DNA of 64,000 nt from Klebsiella pneumoniae (lineage in GTDB: Bacteria; Pseudomonadota; Gammaproteobacteria; Pseudomonadales; UBA5518): the NCBI GenBank assembly GCA_945862145.1, contig CAMAXE010000017.1:1-64000 (forward strand), read 5' to 3'. Of this stretch, positions 53,756 to 64,000 are shown one piece after another. Under the pieces are notes generated by a model that was not told the origin of the DNA, searched no databases, and worked only from the letters and a program-made list of their open reading frames with translations. Both the position numbers and the translations under genes were made by a program. Position 1 is the stretch's first letter. The number at the start of each line of letters is the position of its first letter.

Positions 53756-54886
53756 TTACATCAGCCACTTCACGATCGCGATGCCGATGAAGTTGGCGAT
53801 CACATAGCCCAGGATGCCGATTGTGATGCCGGGCGAGATCAGCGACTTCCAACCCTTCGTGGTGGCGATTGCCGCCGCCGCCGCCGCACCGACGATCGCC
53901 GCGGCGGAGCCGATCACCAGCGGTGCGAGATCGATCTTGAACAGCTTTCCGCCAATCAGCAGCACCACGAAATGCACCCCGAGCATGAAGCAGCAGTAGA
54001 CGAAAAGAACCGGGGCCGACTCAACGAAGCCCAGCGCGTCGGTGCCGGCGCCGATCATTGCGAAGAAGGCGTACATGCACAGCATGCCGATCAGGAAATC
54101 GCCTTCCAGCCGGGCCATCTGGCGCGGCGCGACATTGGCCAGGATCGCGGTGATGACCGTGATGACGAACAGGTTGTAGGTGCCGATTTCCAGGTAGGTG
54201 GAGATCGCATGTGACACCGCGCAGATTGCCAGGCTGATCGAAATCGCTGCGGCGACGTGGTCTATACGCAGGCGCGGCAGCTCCTCCGCACCCTGTCCGG
54301 CTTCGTCCAGATCAGTGCCGTCGATGATCGGCGAGGCGATGTGCCTGCGCACGAATGGAATGGACGGCAGCGTTACCAGCAGCAGCAAGCCGAGGATGCT
54401 CGCGGGTGCGCTGGCGCTCAGCGCCACGCTGAACTGAGTGGGCGTCATTTCCACCGCCTGCGATATGGCGACGAAATTCACGACCCCGCCGATGAAGGCG
54501 CCCGCATAGGTGCCAGCAATCTTGGAACCCTCCGGTCCGAGATCGAACAGAAAGAACCCCGCAACGGCGCCGGCACACACGCCGACACTGGCGATCAAGA
54601 AGGCCGGCAGCACCCAGCCGCCGTCCCTTATCAAGTTGCGCAGGTCCGATTTGAGCAGCAGTAGCGGCACCCCCATGGGCAGGAGGTACTGCCCGACGAA
54701 GCCGAAGGCGGGCGATTCGCGGGGGATCACGCCGGTGTTCGAGAGCAGTAGCCCGATCGCGATGACCCATGGCACGCCGGGCACTACCCGGGCGATCGGT
54801 TTGCTGTCGATCCAGAAGCCGAACCACGCGAGGCCGAAGATAACGGCGCTGAGCGCGAGTACGTTGTCTGGAGCGATCAGCGGCAT
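53756..54886 (-). CDS. DUF819 family membrane protein
   Basis: A 376-residue integral membrane protein with about ten hydrophobic helices. The pattern GTYAGAFIGGVVNFVAISQA (about 129-148) and the mirrored second-half segment VIGSAAAIVGAAAAAAIATTKGWKSL (near 320) are characteristic of the DUF819 (YjcL-like) family, a presumed transporter group. The substrate is unknown. The AAGGAGA site six bases before the ATG 54886 is strong. It diverges from the TonB receptor and could belong to the same uptake theme, though this is only positional. Confidence 0.87.
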   Translation of the reverse strand: MPLIAPDNVLALSAVIFGLAWFGFWIDSKPIARVVPGVPWVIAIGLLLSNTGVIPRESPAFGFVGQYLLPMGVPLLLLKSDLRNLIRDGGWVLPAFLIASVGVCAGAVAGFFLFDLGPEGSKIAGTYAGAFIGGVVNFVAISQAVEMTPTQFSVALSASAPASILGLLLLVTLPSIPFVRRHIASPIIDGTDLDEAGQGAEELPRLRIDHVAAAISISLAICAVSHAISTYLEIGTYNLFVITVITAILANVAPRQMARLEGDFLIGMLCMYAFFAMIGAGTDALGFVESAPVLFVYCCFMLGVHFVVLLIGGKLFKIDLAPLVIGSAAAIVGAAAAAAIATTKGWKSLISPGITIGILGYVIANFIGIAIVKWLM

Positions 54887-55336
54887 GTCTCTCTCCTTTT
54901 ATCCTGGCTGGTGCCGATCTCGAGCAGGGATGGTGGTTATGCGCGCAGCTTGAATGCCACGTCGGGGCGGTTACCGATCATAACTGAGCGCCTAGATGAA
55001 GCAATCTAATAGTGGGATAAAACAGAGAAAATCTCACTGGGTTGAAGTTGGCTGATTCTCCAGAGATGATAAAAGAAGCACATATAAAACAGCAGTTTAA
55101 ACAAAATTAATTCGTTTTTTCACCTGTGTTTCCGCGATTTTCAGTAGCGGTTTAAGGCCAAACATTCTGTTGACCTCAAATTATTAATGGGATGTAATTG
55201 CTCGGGGTCGACTGCTGGCGGACTGTATTGAAGGGGCTTTGGGGGGCGCGCTTGGGTTTGGCAGCGTGCCGGACAGTCAGTGGATCCGCTTTCAAGAACG
55301 TATAACCAGCGGCCATCCGGCCAACAGGAGCATGTG
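54887..55336. other. AT-rich divergent intergenic region of DUF819 gene and TonB receptor
   Basis: This 450-bp region has no supported gene. Bases about 55000-55140 are strongly AT-rich against the GC-rich background. It holds a sigma-70 promoter (55170-55198), AATGGGAT at 55186 and the related AGTGGGATAA at 55011. A frame starting at 55280 is only an extension of the receptor gene. Confidence 0.8.
55170..55198 (+). promoter_or_regulatory. Candidate promoter of the TonB receptor with operator-like AATGGGAT
   Basis: TTGACC (55170-55175), a 17-bp spacer and TGTAAT (55193-55198) give five of six matches each. AATGGGAT (55186-55193) lies in the spacer, where a repressor would block polymerase. 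The leader to the ATG would be about 130 bases. Confidence 0.65.
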
Positions 55337-57769
55337 ATGCGCAACAAGCTGAGCTTGATGATTTCGATGGTTTTGTCACCCCTTACGGCGCTGCCGGCAC
55401 TGGCGCAAAGCGCCGGCGGCGGTCTCGAGGAGGTCGTGGTCACGGCCCAGCGGCGCCAGCAAAATCTGCAGGACGTGCCGGTCAGCGTTACGGCGTTCAG
55501 CGGTGAAGCCCTGAGCAAGTCGAACATCCGCTCTGCCAGCGAATACCTGAGCCAGACGCCGAACGTCAGCTACACCGAGGACGGCCAGACCGGCTCGCGC
55601 GGCATCGGCATCAGCGTGCGCGGGGTCGGCACGATGGTGACCGGCGAGAACGCGTTCATCAACACCATCGGCATCTATATGGACGAGTTCAGCGTCGTCT
55701 CGGTTCCGAACCAGGTTTCGAACCCGGAGTTGCCGGACATGGAGCGCGTCGAGATCCTGCGCGGTCCGCAGGGCACCTATTTCGGACGCAATGCGGTCGG
55801 TGGCGCGCTGAACCTGACCACCAAACGCCCCACCAGCGACTTCGAGGGCGAAGTCCGCGCCGGTTACGAGTCGTACACCGGCGACAACAATATGTGGAAC
55901 ACGACTGGCGTGATCAACATTCCGGTGTCTGAGAACTTCCGCGTGCGCGGCGTCGCCTCATACGAGGAGAGCGACGGCTACGTGAACAACATCTGCGCCG
56001 CCGGCGAGAGCCGGGCCAACTGTCCCGCAGCGGCGGAGAACAACGTACGGCCGAACGGCGCCAAGGACTCTGGCCACGACACCACCTTCCTGCGCTTCAG
56101 CGCGGACTGGGACGTCTCGGATCGCACCAGCATCAAGACCACCTTCTTCCACACTGATGAGAGCCAGGGTACCGACGAGAACGTGCCCTCCGGCGTGCTC
56201 GACCTTGACTCGGCTGACACCTTCGGCATCGGTGTCGCCGAGGACCCCGGCACCGGCTTCTGGCCCCACAACCAGGACAGGCTGAGCCACGACCTCAACG
56301 AAGAGACCAACAACAAGTCCGACATCGCGATCCTGAACGTCAGCCACCAGCTTAGCGAGGCTGTGGCGGTGAAATGGATCACCGGCGTCATCGATGCCAC
56401 CACCAACCGCTATTTCGACCAGGATCTGGTAGGCGGCATGGACGCTCTGGCGCGCACCAACAGCTACGACGGCAATTCCTGGAGCACGGAGCTGCGCGTC
56501 GAGTTCACGCAGAAGGACTTCGACCTAGTGCTCGGCGGACTGTACGCCAAGGACGAGCAGACCCAAGACAACAATATCCATGTGTCGACGAATCCGACAG
56601 CGACGATCAACGGAACTGGCGTTTTGCCGCCCTTCCCCGAAGGTCTTTCCCTGTCCAAGAACCACAAGGAATTCGAAGTGGAGAGCAGGGCGATCTTTGC
56701 CGACCTGACCTATCACGTTACCGATCGGCTCGACCTGACCGCCGGCGCGCGCTACACGTCGGAAAATGTCACCAACTCCCTGCAGTCGTTTGGTATCAGG
56801 CCAACGGTTGGGGGCGGCCCGCCCAACCCGCTGTTTTTCCCGAGCTTCATCAACTTCTCCCGGCCCGAAGCCAACGGCGACGAGGACTTCGACGATCTGG
56901 CGCCGCGCTTTGTGGCGCGCTATGAATTCAGCGACGATCTCAGTGTGTACGGCACGATTTCCAAGGGCTACAAGGCCGGTGGTTCCAGCCTCGGCAACAA
57001 TACCAATCTGGACGGCAGTCCGGCGTTCACCGCGCCCTTCGACGAGGAGACGCTTTGGAACTACGAACTGGGGGTCAAGTCCGAGCTGCTCGACAACCGG
57101 CTGCGCCTGAACGCCTCGGTGTTCCATCTTGACTGGTCCGACATGCAGATGGAGGCCTTCCGCTTCCTGACGGCCGGTGACCTGTCCTCGAACTTCGAGC
57201 AGACGATCAACATCAAGGACGCCGAAGCGAATGGCATCGAAATCGAGATGTTGGCGTCGGTGACCGAGCACTTCACACTGAGCGGCTCGATGGGCTACCT
57301 CGACACTGAAATTACCAGCAACACACAGGCGCAGATAACTGGCGGTTTCGTGGTCGACCTGAAGGGACTGGAATTACCGAAGGCGCCGGAGTTGACCGCG
57401 AGCCTGGCCGGCGAGTACCGCTGGGATCTGGGTGGCAACGAGGCCTGGGTGCGGCTGGAGTACGTGCACCGCGACGGTCAGTATTCCGACGTCGAGGGAC
57501 TAACCAACAAGCAGACTCGCGGCCCCTCGCCGAACCAGGGTCTGGTGCGTGTGATGCCCAACGGAGAGTTCCCGTATCTCAGCCCCGACTTTGACGTCTG
57601 GAACCTGCGCGCGGGATACGACATGCAGAACTGGCAGTTCAACGCCTACGTGCAGAATGTCGGTGAAGAGGAGTACTACACCGGCACGCAGGAGAACTTC
57701 GGTATCAGCGGTATCCGCTTGCGGCCGCATCCCCGCATCGTGGGCGCTACCGTCAGCTACAAGTTCTGA
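55337..57769 (+). CDS. TonB-dependent outer-membrane receptor
   Basis: An 810-residue receptor for active import across the outer membrane. The start is ATG 55337, with CAGGAG six bases upstream. There is a signal peptide (about 1-24, ending ALAQS), then a TonB-box-like EEVVVTAQRR (about 31-40) and the plug domain (about 43-160). The 22-strand barrel runs to the C-terminus, ending PRIVGATVSYKF with terminal Phe. No C-terminal or N-terminal sigma-regulator domain is visible. The receptor heads the sugar-acid island and shares an operator-like motif with the mannonate dehydratase operon, so its cargo may be an oligomeric or modified uronic acid. The substrate is inference. Confidence 0.95.
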   Translation: MRNKLSLMISMVLSPLTALPALAQSAGGGLEEVVVTAQRRQQNLQDVPVSVTAFSGEALSKSNIRSASEYLSQTPNVSYTEDGQTGSRGIGISVRGVGTMVTGENAFINTIGIYMDEFSVVSVPNQVSNPELPDMERVEILRGPQGTYFGRNAVGGALNLTTKRPTSDFEGEVRAGYESYTGDNNMWNTTGVINIPVSENFRVRGVASYEESDGYVNNICAAGESRANCPAAAENNVRPNGAKDSGHDTTFLRFSADWDVSDRTSIKTTFFHTDESQGTDENVPSGVLDLDSADTFGIGVAEDPGTGFWPHNQDRLSHDLNEETNNKSDIAILNVSHQLSEAVAVKWITGVIDATTNRYFDQDLVGGMDALARTNSYDGNSWSTELRVEFTQKDFDLVLGGLYAKDEQTQDNNIHVSTNPTATINGTGVLPPFPEGLSLSKNHKEFEVESRAIFADLTYHVTDRLDLTAGARYTSENVTNSLQSFGIRPTVGGGPPNPLFFPSFINFSRPEANGDEDFDDLAPRFVARYEFSDDLSVYGTISKGYKAGGSSLGNNTNLDGSPAFTAPFDEETLWNYELGVKSELLDNRLRLNASVFHLDWSDMQMEAFRFLTAGDLSSNFEQTINIKDAEANGIEIEMLASVTEHFTLSGSMGYLDTEITSNTQAQITGGFVVDLKGLELPKAPELTASLAGEYRWDLGGNEAWVRLEYVHRDGQYSDVEGLTNKQTRGPSPNQGLVRVMPNGEFPYLSPDFDVWNLRAGYDMQNWQFNAYVQNVGEEEYYTGTQENFGISGIRLRPHPRIVGATVSYKF

Positions 57770-57790
57770 TCTGAGCCCCTGAGACGGTCA

Positions 57791-57823
57791 CGCTGCCCGG
57801 TCGTGGACCGGGCAGCGTTTTTT
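57791..57823 (+). terminator. rho-independent terminator after the TonB receptor
   Basis: A perfect 12-bp stem (CGCTGCCCGGTC / GACCGGGCAGCG, loop GTG) is followed by six T. It ends 24 bp before the kdgK start, so kdgK probably depends on read-through or a promoter I cannot identify. Confidence 0.95.
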
Positions 57824-57846
57824 GTTTGGTGCAGGCACTGGCGTTC

Positions 57847-58809
57847 ATGAATCAATACCCTGCGCGCATGCTGCGCTGTTCGGCGATTGGCGAGTGCATG
57901 ATCGAACTGCGCTCGCTCACGCCCGCCTCGCTGGCGCTTGCCCAAGGGGGTGACACGTTCAATACGCTTTACTACCTGGCTGCGCTGCTGCGCGGCAGCG
58001 GCGGCCGTTTCCGCTACCTCACTGCGCTCGGTGACGACGATCTCAGCGCAAGGATGCGTGCCGAGTGGCAGGCCTGGGGCATCGACACCTCGTTGGTGCA
58101 GACAAAGTCGGGCAAGCTTCCCGGCATCTACCGCATCAGTACCGACAGCGAGGGTGAGCGCCGATTTCACTACTGGCGTCGCGACTCAGCCGCGGGCTCC
58201 CTGATGGAGCAGCTCGACACCGAGGCGCTCGTGGCGCGGTTGCGCAGCGATGAGCTGGTGTATTTTTCAGGCATTTCCCTAGCGATCCTCCCTGCGAGCG
58301 GGCGTCTCGCGCTGCTCGAGGCGCTGCGTGCCTGCGCTCCTGGCGGGCCGCTGGTCGCCTTCGACGATAACTACCGACCGGTGTTGTGGGAGAGTCCTGC
58401 GGCGGCACGCGATGCGTTGCAGCTGGCATTTCAGCTTGCGGATATTGCCTTCGTGTCGTTCGCTGACCAGCAGACGCTGTTCGGTGACGCCGCACCGGAG
58501 CAGACGATGCAGCGCATCCGGGGGCTAGGCGTGCCGGAATTGGTGGTGCGCAACGGCGCGGCACCGAGTCTGGTTGCTAGTGCGCAAGGCCTGCAGGAGT
58601 ACCAGCCACCGGAATTCGCCCGCGCTCTGGACACCACCGGGGCCGGGGATTCGTTTAGCGCCGCTTACTTGGCGGCGCGTCTTTGTGGCTGCGAGCCGCT
58701 GGCCGCGCTGCGCGCCGCGAACGGCTTGTCAGCCCTCGTGGTTGGCGTCCCAGGGGCGCTCATGCCGCAGGGGCAGGTGCCGGCACTGGGTGAGCTGCTA
58801 GCGAAATGA
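57847..58809 (+). CDS. kdgK: 2-dehydro-3-deoxygluconokinase (PfkB family)
   Basis: A 320-residue sugar kinase that phosphorylates 2-keto-3-deoxygluconate to KDPG, feeding the Entner-Doudoroff lower pathway. GECMIEL near residue 16, AQGGDTFNTLYYLAALL (about 37-53) and the catalytic DTTGAGDSFSAAYLAARL (about 265-282, Asp in GAGD) are PfkB landmarks, and the N-terminus matches KDG kinases. The start is uncertain: ATG 57847 is chosen over ATG 57868 and GTG 57826. It is adjacent to the GntR regulator, and the mannonate dehydratase that makes its likely substrate is 1.2 kb away. Confidence 0.9.
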   Translation: MNQYPARMLRCSAIGECMIELRSLTPASLALAQGGDTFNTLYYLAALLRGSGGRFRYLTALGDDDLSARMRAEWQAWGIDTSLVQTKSGKLPGIYRISTDSEGERRFHYWRRDSAAGSLMEQLDTEALVARLRSDELVYFSGISLAILPASGRLALLEALRACAPGGPLVAFDDNYRPVLWESPAAARDALQLAFQLADIAFVSFADQQTLFGDAAPEQTMQRIRGLGVPELVVRNGAAPSLVASAQGLQEYQPPEFARALDTTGAGDSFSAAYLAARLCGCEPLAALRAANGLSALVVGVPGALMPQGQVPALGELLAK

Positions 58810-58838
58810 TGGGAGTGGGCGCGGCAAGGCGCGAGCGC

Positions 58839-59600
58839 CTATGGGGCTTCGCCCTCGCCCGGCTGCTGCGACTGGCGCACGCGCTGCCGGCCTTGATTCA
58901 ACATTTCGACGGTGTGCGCGTAGGCGCTTTTGGTCTTGCCGGCCGCGATGCTCCAGGCAAGCTGACGGTGCAGCTCAAGATCGTGCGCCAGGGCCGCGGT
59001 GTCGGCGGCGTCGTGGGGCATTCCTAGGTTGAAGTGGGCCTGAAGGTAGGTTGCCACGGCGTAGCGGAAGTGAGCGATCACCGCATTGTGTGATGCCTTG
59101 AGGATCGCGGTGTGCAGTTCGATGTCGGCGCTCATGCGCCGCTCGGGATCGTTCTGGGCTTGCTCCATGCGTTCGTAGGCCGAGATGATCGCAGCCACAT
59201 CCTCGCGCGTAGCCCGCGTCGCTGCCAGTTCTGCCGCCTTCGGCTCGATGATGCGGCGTGCCTCGAGCAGCGAGAGAAGAAACTCGGGGGTGGCCGTCTC
59301 CGGATCCGCGTGCCAGGACAGCACGTCCGGATCCAGCATGTTCCATTCTTCGCGCGGGCGGATGCGCGTACCGCTGCGTGGCGCGGTGACGATCAGCCCC
59401 TTGCCAGACAGCACTTTGACCGCTTCGCGCAGGGCGTTCCGGCCGACCCCCAAACTGTTCGCCAGTTCCTGCTCGATCGGTAGTGTTTCGCCCTCCCGGT
59501 AGAGACCGGTGGAAATGCGCTTGCCAATGGTGTTGACCACCACGGCGACCTGCCCTCGGCCCGCTGAGCGCACTTTCTGCGTGGCGTTGCTGGTCTGCAT
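58839..59600 (-). CDS. GntR/FadR-family transcriptional regulator (FCD type)
   Basis: A 253-residue regulator. The winged helix-turn-helix (about 15-80) shows GETLPIEQELANSLGVGRNALREAVKVLSGKGL (quoted as its two halves: ELANSLGVGRNALREAVKVL, then GKGLIVTAPRSGTRIRP). The FCD ligand domain (about 95-235) has RRIIEPKAAELAA and the metal-binding His positions in DIELHTAIL and HDLELHRQLA. Members of this family sense sugar acids, e.g. galactonate or glucuronate derivatives. The start is ATG 59600. It diverges from the mannonate dehydratase and converges with kdgK. It is the probable repressor of the island, perhaps through AATGGGATT-type sites. Confidence 0.92.
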   Translation of the reverse strand: MQTSNATQKVRSAGRGQVAVVVNTIGKRISTGLYREGETLPIEQELANSLGVGRNALREAVKVLSGKGLIVTAPRSGTRIRPREEWNMLDPDVLSWHADPETATPEFLLSLLEARRIIEPKAAELAATRATREDVAAIISAYERMEQAQNDPERRMSADIELHTAILKASHNAVIAHFRYAVATYLQAHFNLGMPHDAADTAALAHDLELHRQLAWSIAAGKTKSAYAHTVEMLNQGRQRVRQSQQPGEGEAP

Positions 59601-60008
59601 GCGTCGGTGCGTCCCAAAAATCAACATAGGGATGAAATAGTCGGCAAATCGCAGTGTATCCAATGCAAGGCGGGGCTACCAGAAGAAGGTTAAAATGGGA
59701 TTAAATGACGTAATTTACAGACGTTTAACGTCGAGCACCTTCAGCAGCGCAGAGCATTTTGCTGAGACTTGCAGCGCGGTCTAAGTCCTTTAGTAACCCA
59801 TTTATTCTATATATATCATTTCATTAAGAAAAAAATGGCGCATGAAAACTGTGCGCCAGTTGCAGCAGGAAGCCTTGCCAAGGACTGCTTGTGCATTGAC
59901 AAATAATGGGATTATTGATAATTTTTCAGCCTTGCCGGGTGGTAGGCTTTCGCCCTTCCACGTCGCGCCCGTAATGATATCAACCCATTGAAACGACCCT
60001 GCCCCGAT
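59601..60008. other. AT-rich divergent control region of the GntR and mannonate dehydratase genes
   Basis: These 408 bp hold no supported gene. They contain AATGGGATTA twice (59694-59703 and 59905-59914), the perfect inverted repeat GACGTT-T-AACGTC (59720-59732) and an AT-rich run around 59790-59835. A promoter for the plus-strand operon is at 59896-59922. I see no clear sigma-70 promoter on the minus strand. Confidence 0.8.
59896..59922 (+). promoter_or_regulatory. Candidate promoter with internal palindrome for the mannonate dehydratase operon
   Basis: TTGACA (59896-59901) is followed by the palindrome AATAAT-GGG-ATTATT (59902-59916) and GATAAT (59917-59922). The spacer is only 15 bp to GATAAT; a 17-bp spacer would give the weaker TAATTT. 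The palindrome lies between -35 and -10, the place for a repressor operator. Confidence 0.65.
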
Positions 60009-61217
60009 ATGAAGATCACCAGCGCGAACGTGATAGTCACCTGCCCCGGGCGAAATTTCGTCACCCTCAAGATCCGCACCGACGAGGGCGTACATGGCAT
60101 CGGCGATGCGACGCTGAACGGGCGTGAAATGGCCGTTGTCGCCTACCTGCAGGAGCATGTGATCCCCTGCCTGATCGGGCGCGACCCACAGCAGATCGAG
60201 GACATCTGGCAGTACCTCTACCGTGGCTGCTACTGGCGTCGCGGGCCCGTGACGATGAGCGCGATCGCCGCCGTCGACACCGCGCTGTGGGATATCAAGG
60301 CCAAGCTTGCTGGCCTGCCGCTCTACCAGTTGCTGGGCGGCAAGAGTCGCGGCGGCGTGATGGTGTACGGGCACGCCAACGGCCGCGATGTCGCGGAGAC
60401 CTGCGACGAGGTCGCGCGCTACATTGATCTCGGCTACAAGGCGATCCGCGCCCAGAGCGGTGTGCCGGGCCTCGACTCCACCTACGGCGTCTCGCGCGAC
60501 AAGCTGTTCTACGAACCCGCCGATGCGGCGCTGCCGAGCGAGAATATCTGGTCCACCGAGAAGTACTTGCGCCACGTGCCGCAGCTGTTCGAGACGCTGC
60601 GCGCAAAATTCGGCTTCGATCACCACTTGCTGCACGACGTGCACCACCGCCTGGCGCCGATCGAGGCGGCTCGGCTCGGCAAGGACCTAGAGCCCTATCG
60701 CCTGTTCTGGCTCGAGGATGCCGTGCCCGCCGAGAACCAGCGCGGCTTCGAGCTGATCCGCCGCCACACCGTGACGCCACTCGCTGTCGGCGAGGTGTTC
60801 AATACGGTGTGGGACTGCAAGGAGCTGATCGAGAACCAGTGGATCGACTACATCCGCATGACCGTTGTGCACGCGGGCGGTATCACGCATCTGCGCCGCA
60901 TCGCTGATTTCGCGGCCCTGCATCACGTGCGTATGGGCTCTCACGGCGCGACCGACCTGTCACCGGCCTGCATGGGTGCGGCGTTGCATTTCGATTTATG
61001 GGTGCCGAACTTCGGCGTGCAGGAGTACATGCGCCACAGCTTGGAAACGGATGCCGTGTTCCCGCACGCCTACACCTTCAGCGATGGGTATCTGCATCCG
61101 GGTGAAGCGCCGGGGCACGGCGTCGACATCGACGAGGCGCTCGCCGCGAAGTATCCGTACCAGCCTGCATACCTGCCGGTTAACCGGCTGCAGGACGGCA
61201 CGATGTGGAACTGGTAA
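60009..61217 (+). CDS. manD: D-mannonate dehydratase (enolase superfamily, ManD type)
   Basis: It dehydrates D-mannonate to 2-keto-3-deoxygluconate. The 402-residue protein matches ManD along its length: [20 protein letters not shown] at the start, RAQSGVPGL near 147, [20 protein letters not shown] near 210, [27 protein letters not shown], and the C-terminal [13 protein letters not shown]. The Asp/His of HDVHH and the Glu of LED and GEV correspond to the metal and catalytic residues of the family. Some ManD homologues are weakly active or inactive, but the KDG kinase nearby makes activity likely. The FAD oxidoreductase gene follows after 16 bp. Confidence 0.93.
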
Positions 61218-61233
61218 GACACGCGAGGACAAC

Positions 61234-62817
61234 GTGGCTGACTACGATATCGTCATAGCGGGCGGCGGGCACAACGCGCTCGCCTGCGCATCGCTGCTGG
61301 CGCTGAACGGCCTGCAAGTCTGCGTGCTCGAACGCAACCCCTGGGTCGGCGGCGGCGTGATCACACGCGAACTCACGCTGCCCGGTTTCAAGCACGACCC
61401 CTTTGGCTCCTCGCATGTGTGGATCCACCTGAACCCGGATTTTCGCGAGGTGATGCCGGAGCTTGCGAAGCATGGGCTCAGGTACATCTGGTCTGATGAC
61501 CACATCACGGGGCACCCTAACAAGTACGAAGGGCAAGGCATCATCGTGTATCGCGACATCGACAAGACCTGCGCGTCGATCGCCGAGTACTCGAAGCAGG
61601 ACGCGCGCCGTTACCGCGAGATCTATGAGGAGTTCGGTGAGATCCGCGAGGGTGTGACCAAGAGCATGTTCGCGCCGCCCGGCCCGCCGAGTCTCCTGTA
61701 CCAGGCGCTGGAGAACACCACCGAAGGATTGAAGCGGCTGCGCAACTACCAGCTTAGCTCGCGCCAGTTCACGCTCGAGAACTTCGAGAACGAGCACGTC
61801 CGTGCGTTCATCCTCGGCTGGTCAATGGCGCCGCAGACTCTGCCGGACCAGCTCGGCACGGGCTCGGGCTTCTACGTGATGATCCCCAGCATCCACTATT
61901 ACGGGCAATCGATACCCGAGGGCGGCAGCGGCATGTTGTCGGTGGCGATGCAGCGTTTCATCGAGTCGCGCGGTGGCAATGTCCAGACTGGCGCCACGGT
62001 GCGGCGCTTCCTCGTCGAGGGCGATCGCTGCCACGGCGTGCGGCTCGAGGACGGCACCGAGATCACGGCGAAGCTCGGCGTAGTGAGCGCGCTGGATCCC
62101 TACCAGACATTCTTACACGGCTTCGAGGAGGGCGTGCTGCCGCCGGACTTCGTCTCGATGGTGCGCAAATTCAGCTTCGGTGAGGTGACGATCGCGCGCG
62201 TGCACTACGCGCTGAACGAGGCGCCCCGGTTCCGCAACGGCAGCGAAATGGACAAGACCGCGTTCCAGCGCATGTTCGGCACCGTCGCCGATATCGATCG
62301 CCAGTACCACGAGATGGCGCAGGGCCTGGCGCCCAGCGACCCGTTCCTGTGGGCCGCGGCCTGGACCACCATGGACCCCACCCGCGCCCCGCCCGGCAAG
62401 CACACGCTGATCATGGACACCTTTGTGCCTGTGGAGCTGGCGAGTGGCGAGGACTGGGAGAAGATTGGCCCCGACTACTGCCGGAGCAAGCTGCTCACGC
62501 AATTGCGCAACTACACGACCAACATGGTCGACGACAACATCCTCGCCGAGTACGTGGAGACGGGGCCGAGCCTCGCACGCGCGAATCTGTGCTTCTACCG
62601 CGGCGTGACCACCGGTGGCGAACGCACGCTGGCGCAGATGGGCGCCTTCAGACCCTTCCCGAACTACGCGCATTACCGCGGACCGGTCAAGGGACTGTAC
62701 ATGACCGGCCCGTCCTGCCACCCCGGCGGTGGCATCTGCGCTATGGGCACGATCACGGCGAAGGTGATCCTGCGCGACATCGGCGCAGTGGACGAAGACG
62801 ACGATTTCGATTTCTGA
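61234..62817 (+). CDS. FAD-dependent oxidoreductase (phytoene-desaturase-like)
   Basis: A 527-residue flavoprotein of the COG1233 type. The dinucleotide-binding motif DYDIVIAGGGHNALACASLL (about 3-22), then VLERNPWVGGGVITREL and the C-terminal FAD contact GLYMTGPSCHPGGGICAMG (about 488-506) are clear. The start is GTG 61234 with GAGGA five bases upstream; a longer open frame back to 60865 runs antisense-like over manD and is rejected. Although such proteins include carotenoid desaturases, no carotenoid gene is here. In an operon with mannonate dehydratase and an amidase, it may oxidise an unusual sugar-derived or aminated compound. No signal peptide. Confidence 0.87.
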   Translation: MADYDIVIAGGGHNALACASLLALNGLQVCVLERNPWVGGGVITRELTLPGFKHDPFGSSHVWIHLNPDFREVMPELAKHGLRYIWSDDHITGHPNKYEGQGIIVYRDIDKTCASIAEYSKQDARRYREIYEEFGEIREGVTKSMFAPPGPPSLLYQALENTTEGLKRLRNYQLSSRQFTLENFENEHVRAFILGWSMAPQTLPDQLGTGSGFYVMIPSIHYYGQSIPEGGSGMLSVAMQRFIESRGGNVQTGATVRRFLVEGDRCHGVRLEDGTEITAKLGVVSALDPYQTFLHGFEEGVLPPDFVSMVRKFSFGEVTIARVHYALNEAPRFRNGSEMDKTAFQRMFGTVADIDRQYHEMAQGLAPSDPFLWAAAWTTMDPTRAPPGKHTLIMDTFVPVELASGEDWEKIGPDYCRSKLLTQLRNYTTNMVDDNILAEYVETGPSLARANLCFYRGVTTGGERTLAQMGAFRPFPNYAHYRGPVKGLYMTGPSCHPGGGICAMGTITAKVILRDIGAVDEDDDFDF

Positions 62818-62847: not shown

Positions 62848-64000
62848 ATGACGACCCCGCGAGTAGAACCCTACACGGCCCTGATCGTGCAGCCCGAAGT
62901 GACTGTGATCAAGGATCGCAGCGACATCCAGAAGAACCTGGACCGCGTCTGCAACATGATCCACTTCGGCACCGGATATTTCTGGGAAGTGCCGGTGCGC
63001 CTGGTGGTCCTGCCCGAGTATTTCATGCAGGGCGTCGGTACGCCTGGCAAGGGCGAGAGCGGCATCGGCGACACGATGAAGAAGGCGGTCACGATCCCCG
63101 GGCCCGAGGTGCAGCAGCTCGGGGACATCGCGCGGCAGTACGGCATGTACATCTGCGCCGGTGGCGTGGTTGAGGAACTGCCGGAATTCCCCGACCGCTG
63201 GTTCAACACCAACTTCATCGTCGGCCCCACCGGCGAGATCGTACTGAAGTATCACAAGTGGCACATTCCTGCCTACCTTGGTCTCGGCACCTCGCCGCAC
63301 GACATCTTCGACGAGTACCAGGAGAAGATCGGCGGCGGCATAAAGAAGCTTTTCCCGGTGGTAGACACGCCGATCGGCAAGCTCGGCACCATGACCTGCC
63401 ACGACGGCTGCACGCCGGAGGTCTCGCGCGCGCTTGGCTACAACGGCGTGGAGGTGATCTGTCACCCGGGCGCAATCCAGGAAGTGGAAGGCGTCTCACC
63501 GCCGTGGGACTTCTGGATGTTCACGCGCCGCACGCGCGCCCACGACAACATGGCTTACCTGCTGGGCGCGAACTGGGGCTCGGTCAACTACGAGTTCTAC
63601 CCCAAGGCGTTCTGCCCCGGCAACTCCTTCGCGATCGACTACACCGGCATGTTGCTGCGCCACGCGCCCTACCCGTCCGAGCAAGTGCTCGCGGTGACCA
63701 TCGACATCGAGGCGCTGCGCCAGTACCGCACGCGCACCGCGCACAACTGCTGGGTCGACGTGCGCACCGAGGGCTTTCGCGAGATCTACGAAAAGCCAAT
63801 CTACCCACCGAACCGCTTCCCGAGCGGCAAGCCGCCACGCACGCTGTCCGACAAGATCTCGATCTGCAAGGAGGTGTTCGACGACCTCTACGAGCGCGGC
63901 CAGTTCACCCCGCCGGCGGGCATGGGTCCGAAGGACGTGTCGAAGCAACTCGAACGACGCATCCAGTACGCGCAGGAAACCGGGCGCCTCAAGAAAAGCT
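62848..64000 (+). CDS. Carbon-nitrogen hydrolase (nitrilase/amidase family), 3' end cut off
   Basis: The frame is open from ATG 62848 to the last base, at least 384 residues. Catalytic triad candidates are Glu57 (VVLPEYFMQG), Lys137 (KYHKWHIP) and Cys184 (TMTCHDGCTPE). The Cys-His-Asp-Gly pattern resembles formamidases and aliphatic amidases more than nitrilases. The ending of the protein and any further operon genes lie beyond the window. It follows the FAD oxidoreductase after 30 bp, so it is the third gene of the manD operon. It could release ammonia from an amidated sugar acid, but this is only inferred from context. Confidence 0.9.
   Translation, partial: MTTPRVEPYTALIVQPEVTVIKDRSDIQKNLDRVCNMIHFGTGYFWEVPVRLVVLPEYFMQGVGTPGKGESGIGDTMKKAVTIPGPEVQQLGDIARQYGMYICAGGVVEELPEFPDRWFNTNFIVGPTGEIVLKYHKWHIPAYLGLGTSPHDIFDEYQEKIGGGIKKLFPVVDTPIGKLGTMTCHDGCTPEVSRALGYNGVEVICHPGAIQEVEGVSPPWDFWMFTRRTRAHDNMAYLLGANWGSVNYEFYPKAFCPGNSFAIDYTGMLLRHAPYPSEQVLAVTIDIEALRQYRTRTAHNCWVDVRTEGFREIYEKPIYPPNRFPSGKPPRTLSDKISICKEVFDDLYERGQFTPPAGMGPKDVSKQLERRIQYAQETGRLKKS

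Follow-up and report, generated by a model that had tools for sequence, protein, structure and literature searches.

An inverted repeat that recurs around a GntR-family gene in the window, i.e. the whole stretch of 64,000 nucleotides analyzed here, is most probably the operator of the regulator encoded by that gene. We put at roughly 0.88 the probability that the motif is recognized by this GntR/FadR-subfamily protein (58839–59600, minus strand), acting as a dimeric, effector-released repressor of a local regulon. Computation established the sites, their conservation in relatives, the fact that they are confined to one island, and where they lie with respect to promoter-like boxes.

Sites in the window and in the genome

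The word AATGGGAT occurred at positions 55186, 59694, and 59905 of the window, with no fourth copy on either strand; AATGGGATTA was present at 59694 and 59905 and AGTGGGATAA at 55011. Positions 59902–59916 read AATAAT-GGG-ATTATT, a perfect palindrome around GGG. All these coordinates had been given by a first-pass annotation of the DNA and were confirmed, as was its placement of a GntR gene between the sites. The same annotation, working by eye, had seen no copies of the motif elsewhere. This held for AATGGGAT in the window, but a contig scan with a matrix derived from relatives (see below) revealed two additional sites beyond the window, at C17:72126–72140 and C17:72303–72317.

Four operator sites are predicted in the window, all on the plus strand. 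AATAGTGGGATAAAA (55008–55022) is located ~129 bp before the start of a DUF819 gene and is the fourth and weakest by profile score (16.0). ATTAATGGGATGTAA (55183–55197; score 25.7) lies ~147 bp before the start of a TonB receptor gene; inspection by eye placed it between TTGACC (55171) and TGTAAT (55194), in agreement with the earlier proposal that the motif resides in the spacer of the receptor promoter. TAAAATGGGATTAAA (59691–59705; score 23.6) is found ~98 bp before the start of the GntR gene, and autoregulation of GntR is predicted from it. AATAATGGGATTATT (59902–59916), ~100 bp before manD, has the best score of the window (35.2). All site-to-gene distances are approximate because the start codons are approximate. 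In the GntR/ManD divergon, one site is thus found near each start (98 bp for GntR and 100 bp for ManD), the two being 211 bp apart, and the matching interval of the relatives holds at least two sites, as fits a divergon that is autoregulated through double sites. Halfway between them, at 59809–59834, lies another A/T-rich palindrome; it is a weak candidate (score 15.6) and does not have the GGG center.

In an alignment of the window with five relatives (L005–L009), all have TTGACA followed by the operator and then by a stretch resembling TGATAATTT, and a candidate promoter of the manD/FAD operon, consisting of TTGACA, an operator-filled spacer, and TGATAATTT, was assigned to 59896–59924 on the plus strand. 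From this shared layout we deduced that the operator fills the promoter spacer. The promoter layout at 59896–59924 was read by eye; a strict promoter scan found no promoter.

The genome under study comprises 4.375 Mb in 51 contigs. AATGGGATTA occurs in it three times, twice in the window and once on contig C40, where it falls within a 681-aa coding frame and was rejected as an operator. The pattern WWWARTGGGAYDWWW, which covers all six sites and was composed after these had been seen, has exactly six matches in the genome, all in one island (the four window sites and the two outside), versus two for its reversed control; no match was obtained in five genus mates without the GntR gene at the threshold used. 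Many unrelated copies of the motif, which the first-pass annotation had named as evidence that would speak against its reading, were not encountered. A calibrated sequence-only profile searched against the whole genome returned just two matches with E ≤ 10, at 59899 (E 0.035; site 59902–59916, the best match genome-wide) and at 59690 (E 0.65), and the weaker sites at 55011 and 55186 missed this limit. Sites occur in pairs at both 55 kb and 72 kb, but promoter duplication as the origin of these pairs was rejected because the similarity between the two regions stops at the sites themselves (local alignment score 20.5 versus a shuffled maximum of 21.0).

Conservation and anatomy of the putative operator

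A search for GntR homologues in the family and in 369 genomes of the class recovered only the genome under study at the set thresholds. When genome contigs were scanned with GntR as the query, 43 loci were obtained, and 13 gammaproteobacterial loci (L005–L016 and L018), the GntR proteins of which are 60–72% identical (other loci, ≤45%), constitute the set of relatives. All 13 carry the motif near GntR, between this gene and the divergent operon, and it is also often found before a transporter, a TonB receptor, or an aldolase gene. Without use of the window, the 8-mers ATGGGATT and TGGGATTA proved to be the most widely shared words, being detected in the GntR intergenic regions of eight out of eight independent relatives, whereas the most shared 8-mer of 300 shuffled sets was never present in more than five of eight. 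When a matrix was built from 20 non-redundant sites of the relatives and none from the window, the four sites of the first-pass annotation took ranks 1–4 in the window with the scores given above; the best scores in 20 window shuffles ranged from 3.5 to 12.9. The site is 82–114 bp away from the GntR start in L005–L009 and L014 and ~30 bp away in the other loci. The spacing of two sites shrinks where the intergenic region is shorter, a behavior that has been tied to sites that act separately, one for each operon (PMC4494728).

Sites precede the TonB receptor gene in L007 (5083), L009, L012–L016, L018, and L073, and two sites precede eda in L009. In the whole genomes of the 13 relatives, most profile matches fell inside the GntR locus. 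Off-locus, three sites are located before a TonB receptor gene ~10 kb away in the L008 genome (L073), and in the L009 genome (Pseudoteredinibacter) two strong sites that lie far from the GntR locus precede a sulfatase gene, the product of which contains an SGSH_C domain (L071, 6153–7881). The substrate may be sulfated in the Pseudoteredinibacter lineage. In both L013 and L015, which are near relatives (L072/L089), a site overlaps the ATG of a gene for FGE, a sulfatase-modifying enzyme, beside an Eda aldolase gene; the next genes in L013 encode a sulfatase, a KDG kinase, and a TonB receptor. This case is weak because of the overlap with the start codon and the close kinship of the two genomes, and it may be due to chance. 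L010 and L011 are near-identical loci in two metagenome bins that are assigned to different groups (Halioglobus and Arenicellales), which may point to either a binning error or a very recent transfer. In 30 distant relatives, ATGGGAT was not found within the upstream 350 bp in any case, and a search for their operator did not retrieve a common palindrome.

The operator has the approximate consensus TNATGGGATNA and is surrounded by A/T-rich sequence. Among 56 non-redundant sites, the left half is defined by T at −5 (47/56), A at −4 (38/56), A at −3 (50/56), and T at −2 (54/56), and the right half by A at +2 (50/56), T at +3 (54/56), T at +4 (40/56), and A at +5 (44/56); the three G residues of the center are present in 37, 48, and 43 of the 56. 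Weak matches to a matrix that had been seeded with ATGGGATT are part of this set, and selection therefore favors the core to some extent; the 8-mer word count is free of that effect. FadR-subfamily operators are inverted repeats with TKGT/ACMA boxes, usually with 3 nt between GT and AC (PMC4494728). The box described here, TNAT-GGG-ATNA, retains the 3-nt center and the outer T/A, but the GT/AC step is missing: the place of the conserved G is taken by A in 50 of 56 sites and that of the counterpart C by T in 54 of 56. The kind of protein is known; the operator departs from the FadR-subfamily box. The GGG center is non-palindromic, although a dimer would be expected to bind.

Other origins of the motif were weighed against this body of evidence. 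That an A/T-rich word recurs in promoter DNA merely by chance is scarcely credible. Three copies of AATGGGAT in the window, against 1.03 expected, were equaled or exceeded in 10 of 100 dinucleotide shuffles, for which reason the raw count was dropped as proof, but a chance origin is contradicted by the independent conservation of the motif, which occupies matching positions in the 13 divergent loci, and the top-four ranking by the relatives-only matrix together with the six-match genome pattern refutes it. A role as a core promoter element or as a target of an alternative sigma factor, rather than as a GntR site, is very unlikely for the motif, although it sits exactly between TTGACA and a −10-like box before the operon and the surrounding DNA is A/T-rich. 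Such an element fails as an explanation because the orientation of the motif ignores the direction of transcription: all six genome sites read on the plus strand, yet four of them precede minus-strand genes. In addition, the distance to the start codon ranges from 17 to ~400 bp, and neither the remainder of the genome nor the five genus mates contain the motif. Binding by a different regulator, either one traveling with the island or one of the host, is unlikely as well. Co-occurrence by itself does not identify the binding protein, and some of the sites in the L009 locus and the genome to which it belongs have AraC-type regulators nearby; against this stand the findings that GntR is the sole regulator found in the island, that no further regulator was recognized among the conserved gene clusters of the relative loci, that a site is close to the GntR start in 13/13 loci, and that genus mates without GntR are also without the motif.

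The GntR regulator and known systems

The proposed operator-binding protein (58839–59600) is a GntR/FadR-subfamily regulator of 253 aa with an N-terminal GntR winged helix-turn-helix (HTH) domain (PF00392; 52.7 bits, cut-off 27) and a C-terminal FCD domain (PF07729; 65.9 bits, cut-off 24.3). It remained under every cut-off for the NCBIfam equivalogs UxuR, ExuR, LldR, GlcC, and PdhR. Its best match among solved structures is DgoR, the D-galactonate repressor of Escherichia coli (PDB 7c7e; E 1.6e-28), with which it shares the two-domain make-up and the linker stretch WN.LD.DVL.W. The DgoR metal residues Asp146, His150, and His195 as well as Arg102 and Gln173 are identical in the aligned GntR (roles according to PMC7674646), whereas Arg179, Trp181, Asp184, and Thr191 are changed and Ser221 and Arg224 lie outside the alignment; these residues do not mark GntR as a DgoR ortholog. 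A metal-bound carboxylate is a plausible ligand, but there is no support for D-galactonate itself.

The inverted repeats bound by DgoR overlap its target promoter and read TTGT-AGT-ACAA (PMC12288454), with a 3-nt center (PMC4494728). The center is of the same length here, but the half-sites differ (TTGT/ACAA in DgoR versus TNAT/ATNA), and the genes regulated by DgoR belong mostly to other families than those found here. BioR, another GntR-family member, recognizes TTATMKATAA and represents an exception without GT/AC in the FadR subfamily (PMC4494728). Its half-site TTAT/ATAA resembles the TNAT/ATNA of the present operator; however, BioR has a 2-nt rather than a 3-nt center and acts on biotin genes, and the comparison covers the operators. 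UxuR and ExuR are GntR/FadR-subfamily regulators of uronate catabolism, and their NCBIfam cut-offs were clearly missed by GntR (66.6 of 442 and 55.1 of 396 bits, respectively). The UxuR/ExuR operator contains GT/AC boxes (PMC4494728), unlike the operator described here.

Operator and recognition region of the regulator vary together: the HTH of proteins with the motif contains E-Q and VGRNALRE, whereas that of distant relatives without the motif is VSRTALRE-like. In the register of FadR numbering, the Gln presumably occupies the position usually held by Arg in the HTH. Arg at HTH position 28 is reported to pair with G/C at site positions 6/14 and to avoid A/T (PMC4494728). In this register, Gln in place of Arg and the predominance of A at site position 6 are consistent with the reported code; Asn at position 39 combined with G at 9/11 is contrary to the reported trend for Asn (PMC4494728).

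The putative regulon and its effector

Predicted regulated genes in the left part of the island encode a DUF819 membrane protein, a likely transporter (53756–54886, minus strand; PF05684) found in 9 of the 13 relative loci, and a TonB-dependent receptor (55337–57769, plus strand; PF00593 and PF07715); both, and an SDR, are frequent in relative loci. A PfkB-family kinase resembling 2-dehydro-3-deoxygluconokinase (57826–58809, plus strand; NF052444, 298 bits, under the cut-off of 400) is encoded without a site of its own. A strong terminator-like hairpin (57790–57818) lies between the receptor and kinase genes, and the kinase may therefore be transcribed separately. The operon on the other side of GntR starts with D-mannonate dehydratase ManD (60009–61217, plus strand; NF043051, 753 bits, cut-off 550) and continues with a CrtO/phytoene-dehydrogenase-like FAD oxidoreductase (61219–62817, plus strand; homologues 74–78% identical) and a carbon-nitrogen hydrolase (62848–64002, plus strand), the last two bases of which lie beyond the window end at 64000. 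It goes on to C17 67262 with an 86-aa protein that has no Pfam match, a ThDP enzyme, and a HisC-like aminotransferase. Also outside the window, the sites at C17 72126–72317 stand before an operon for an MDR-like dehydrogenase (named by eye), two SDRs, a Gfo/Idh oxidoreductase, and Eda aldolase (C17:67339–72046, minus strand). These sites mark the right edge of the island, beyond which purine-biosynthesis-like genes are located.

ManD was present at the matching place in only one of the 13 relatives (L006) and the KDG kinase in none. A homologue of the FAD oxidoreductase, the predicted conserved regulated partner, was found in 12 of the 13 loci and was absent solely from a short contig; it is followed by the C-N hydrolase, the 86-aa protein, the aminotransferase, and usually the ThDP enzyme, in some cases with an aldehyde dehydrogenase. 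The conserved unit under predicted control is the FAD oxidoreductase/C-N hydrolase/86-aa protein/ThDP enzyme/aminotransferase operon, not manD, and a KDG branch would be an addition to the core pathway in some genomes. The roles of the core enzymes were deduced from family names alone. The reading of the first-pass annotation is retained for an operator-like motif that is confined to the island and almost certainly belongs to the GntR encoded between the sites; it is modified in that manD is not the conserved unit and two more sites and a second operon lie past the window. Because the GntR gene is absent from the five genus mates, the island (53756 to C17 72.4 kb) was probably acquired by transfer. 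Its GC content (0.642) differs little from that of the flanks (0.652 and 0.677).

The mode of action proposed here, from binding by GntR and a negative instead of a positive effect on transcription to the type of ligand, is inferred. A GntR dimer would occupy each site. In the absence of effector, it would block its own promoter, those of the DUF819 transporter and TonB receptor genes, that of the operon running from manD through the genes for the FAD oxidoreductase, the C-N hydrolase, and the ThDP enzyme to that for the aminotransferase, and, beyond the window end, that of the MDR-SDR-SDR-Gfo/Idh-Eda operon, so that the local regulon would comprise five promoter regions including that of GntR itself. 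The effector would be an organic acid that is either imported by the system or formed within it; it would probably enter the metal-containing pocket of the FCD domain and free the protein from DNA.

Within this proposal, a sugar acid of the hexuronate pathway (mannonate, KDG, or KDPG) is a tentative candidate for the effector, at somewhat less than even odds. ManD, the KDG-kinase-like PfkB protein, and Eda aldolase are all encoded in the island, eda has its two sites in L009, an off-locus site in L013 is near the genes for Eda and KDG kinase, and DgoR, the nearest solved relative, senses D-galactonate. On the other hand, ManD is adjacent only in L006 and KDG kinase in none of the relatives, the constant partner is an unrelated operon, and Arg179, Trp181, Asp184, and Thr191 of DgoR are not conserved (roles according to PMC7674646).

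Among the 20 papers listed out of 74 matches, none used the motif words in a regulatory context, and no description of the operator was found in the literature searched, RegPrecise aside (where a prior listing is possible). We consider it somewhat more likely than not that an undescribed GntR/FadR-subfamily regulon, with the atypical operator TNAT-GGG-ATNA and its conserved one-sided GGG center, governs a likewise undescribed pathway of catabolism (TonB receptor, DUF819 transporter, FAD oxidoreductase, C-N hydrolase, ThDP enzyme, and aminotransferase, in some genomes also aldehyde dehydrogenase and sulfatase) and that the island has moved between scattered gammaproteobacterial lineages. A regulator, its site, and a full local regulon would thereby be linked by sequence alone. 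As the operator departs from the usual box of the FadR subfamily, the published code for protein-DNA recognition could be tested well on this pair. The regulon would mark out an uncharacterized uptake-and-breakdown pathway, and the operator site would offer a ready reporter for finding the substrate of that pathway.
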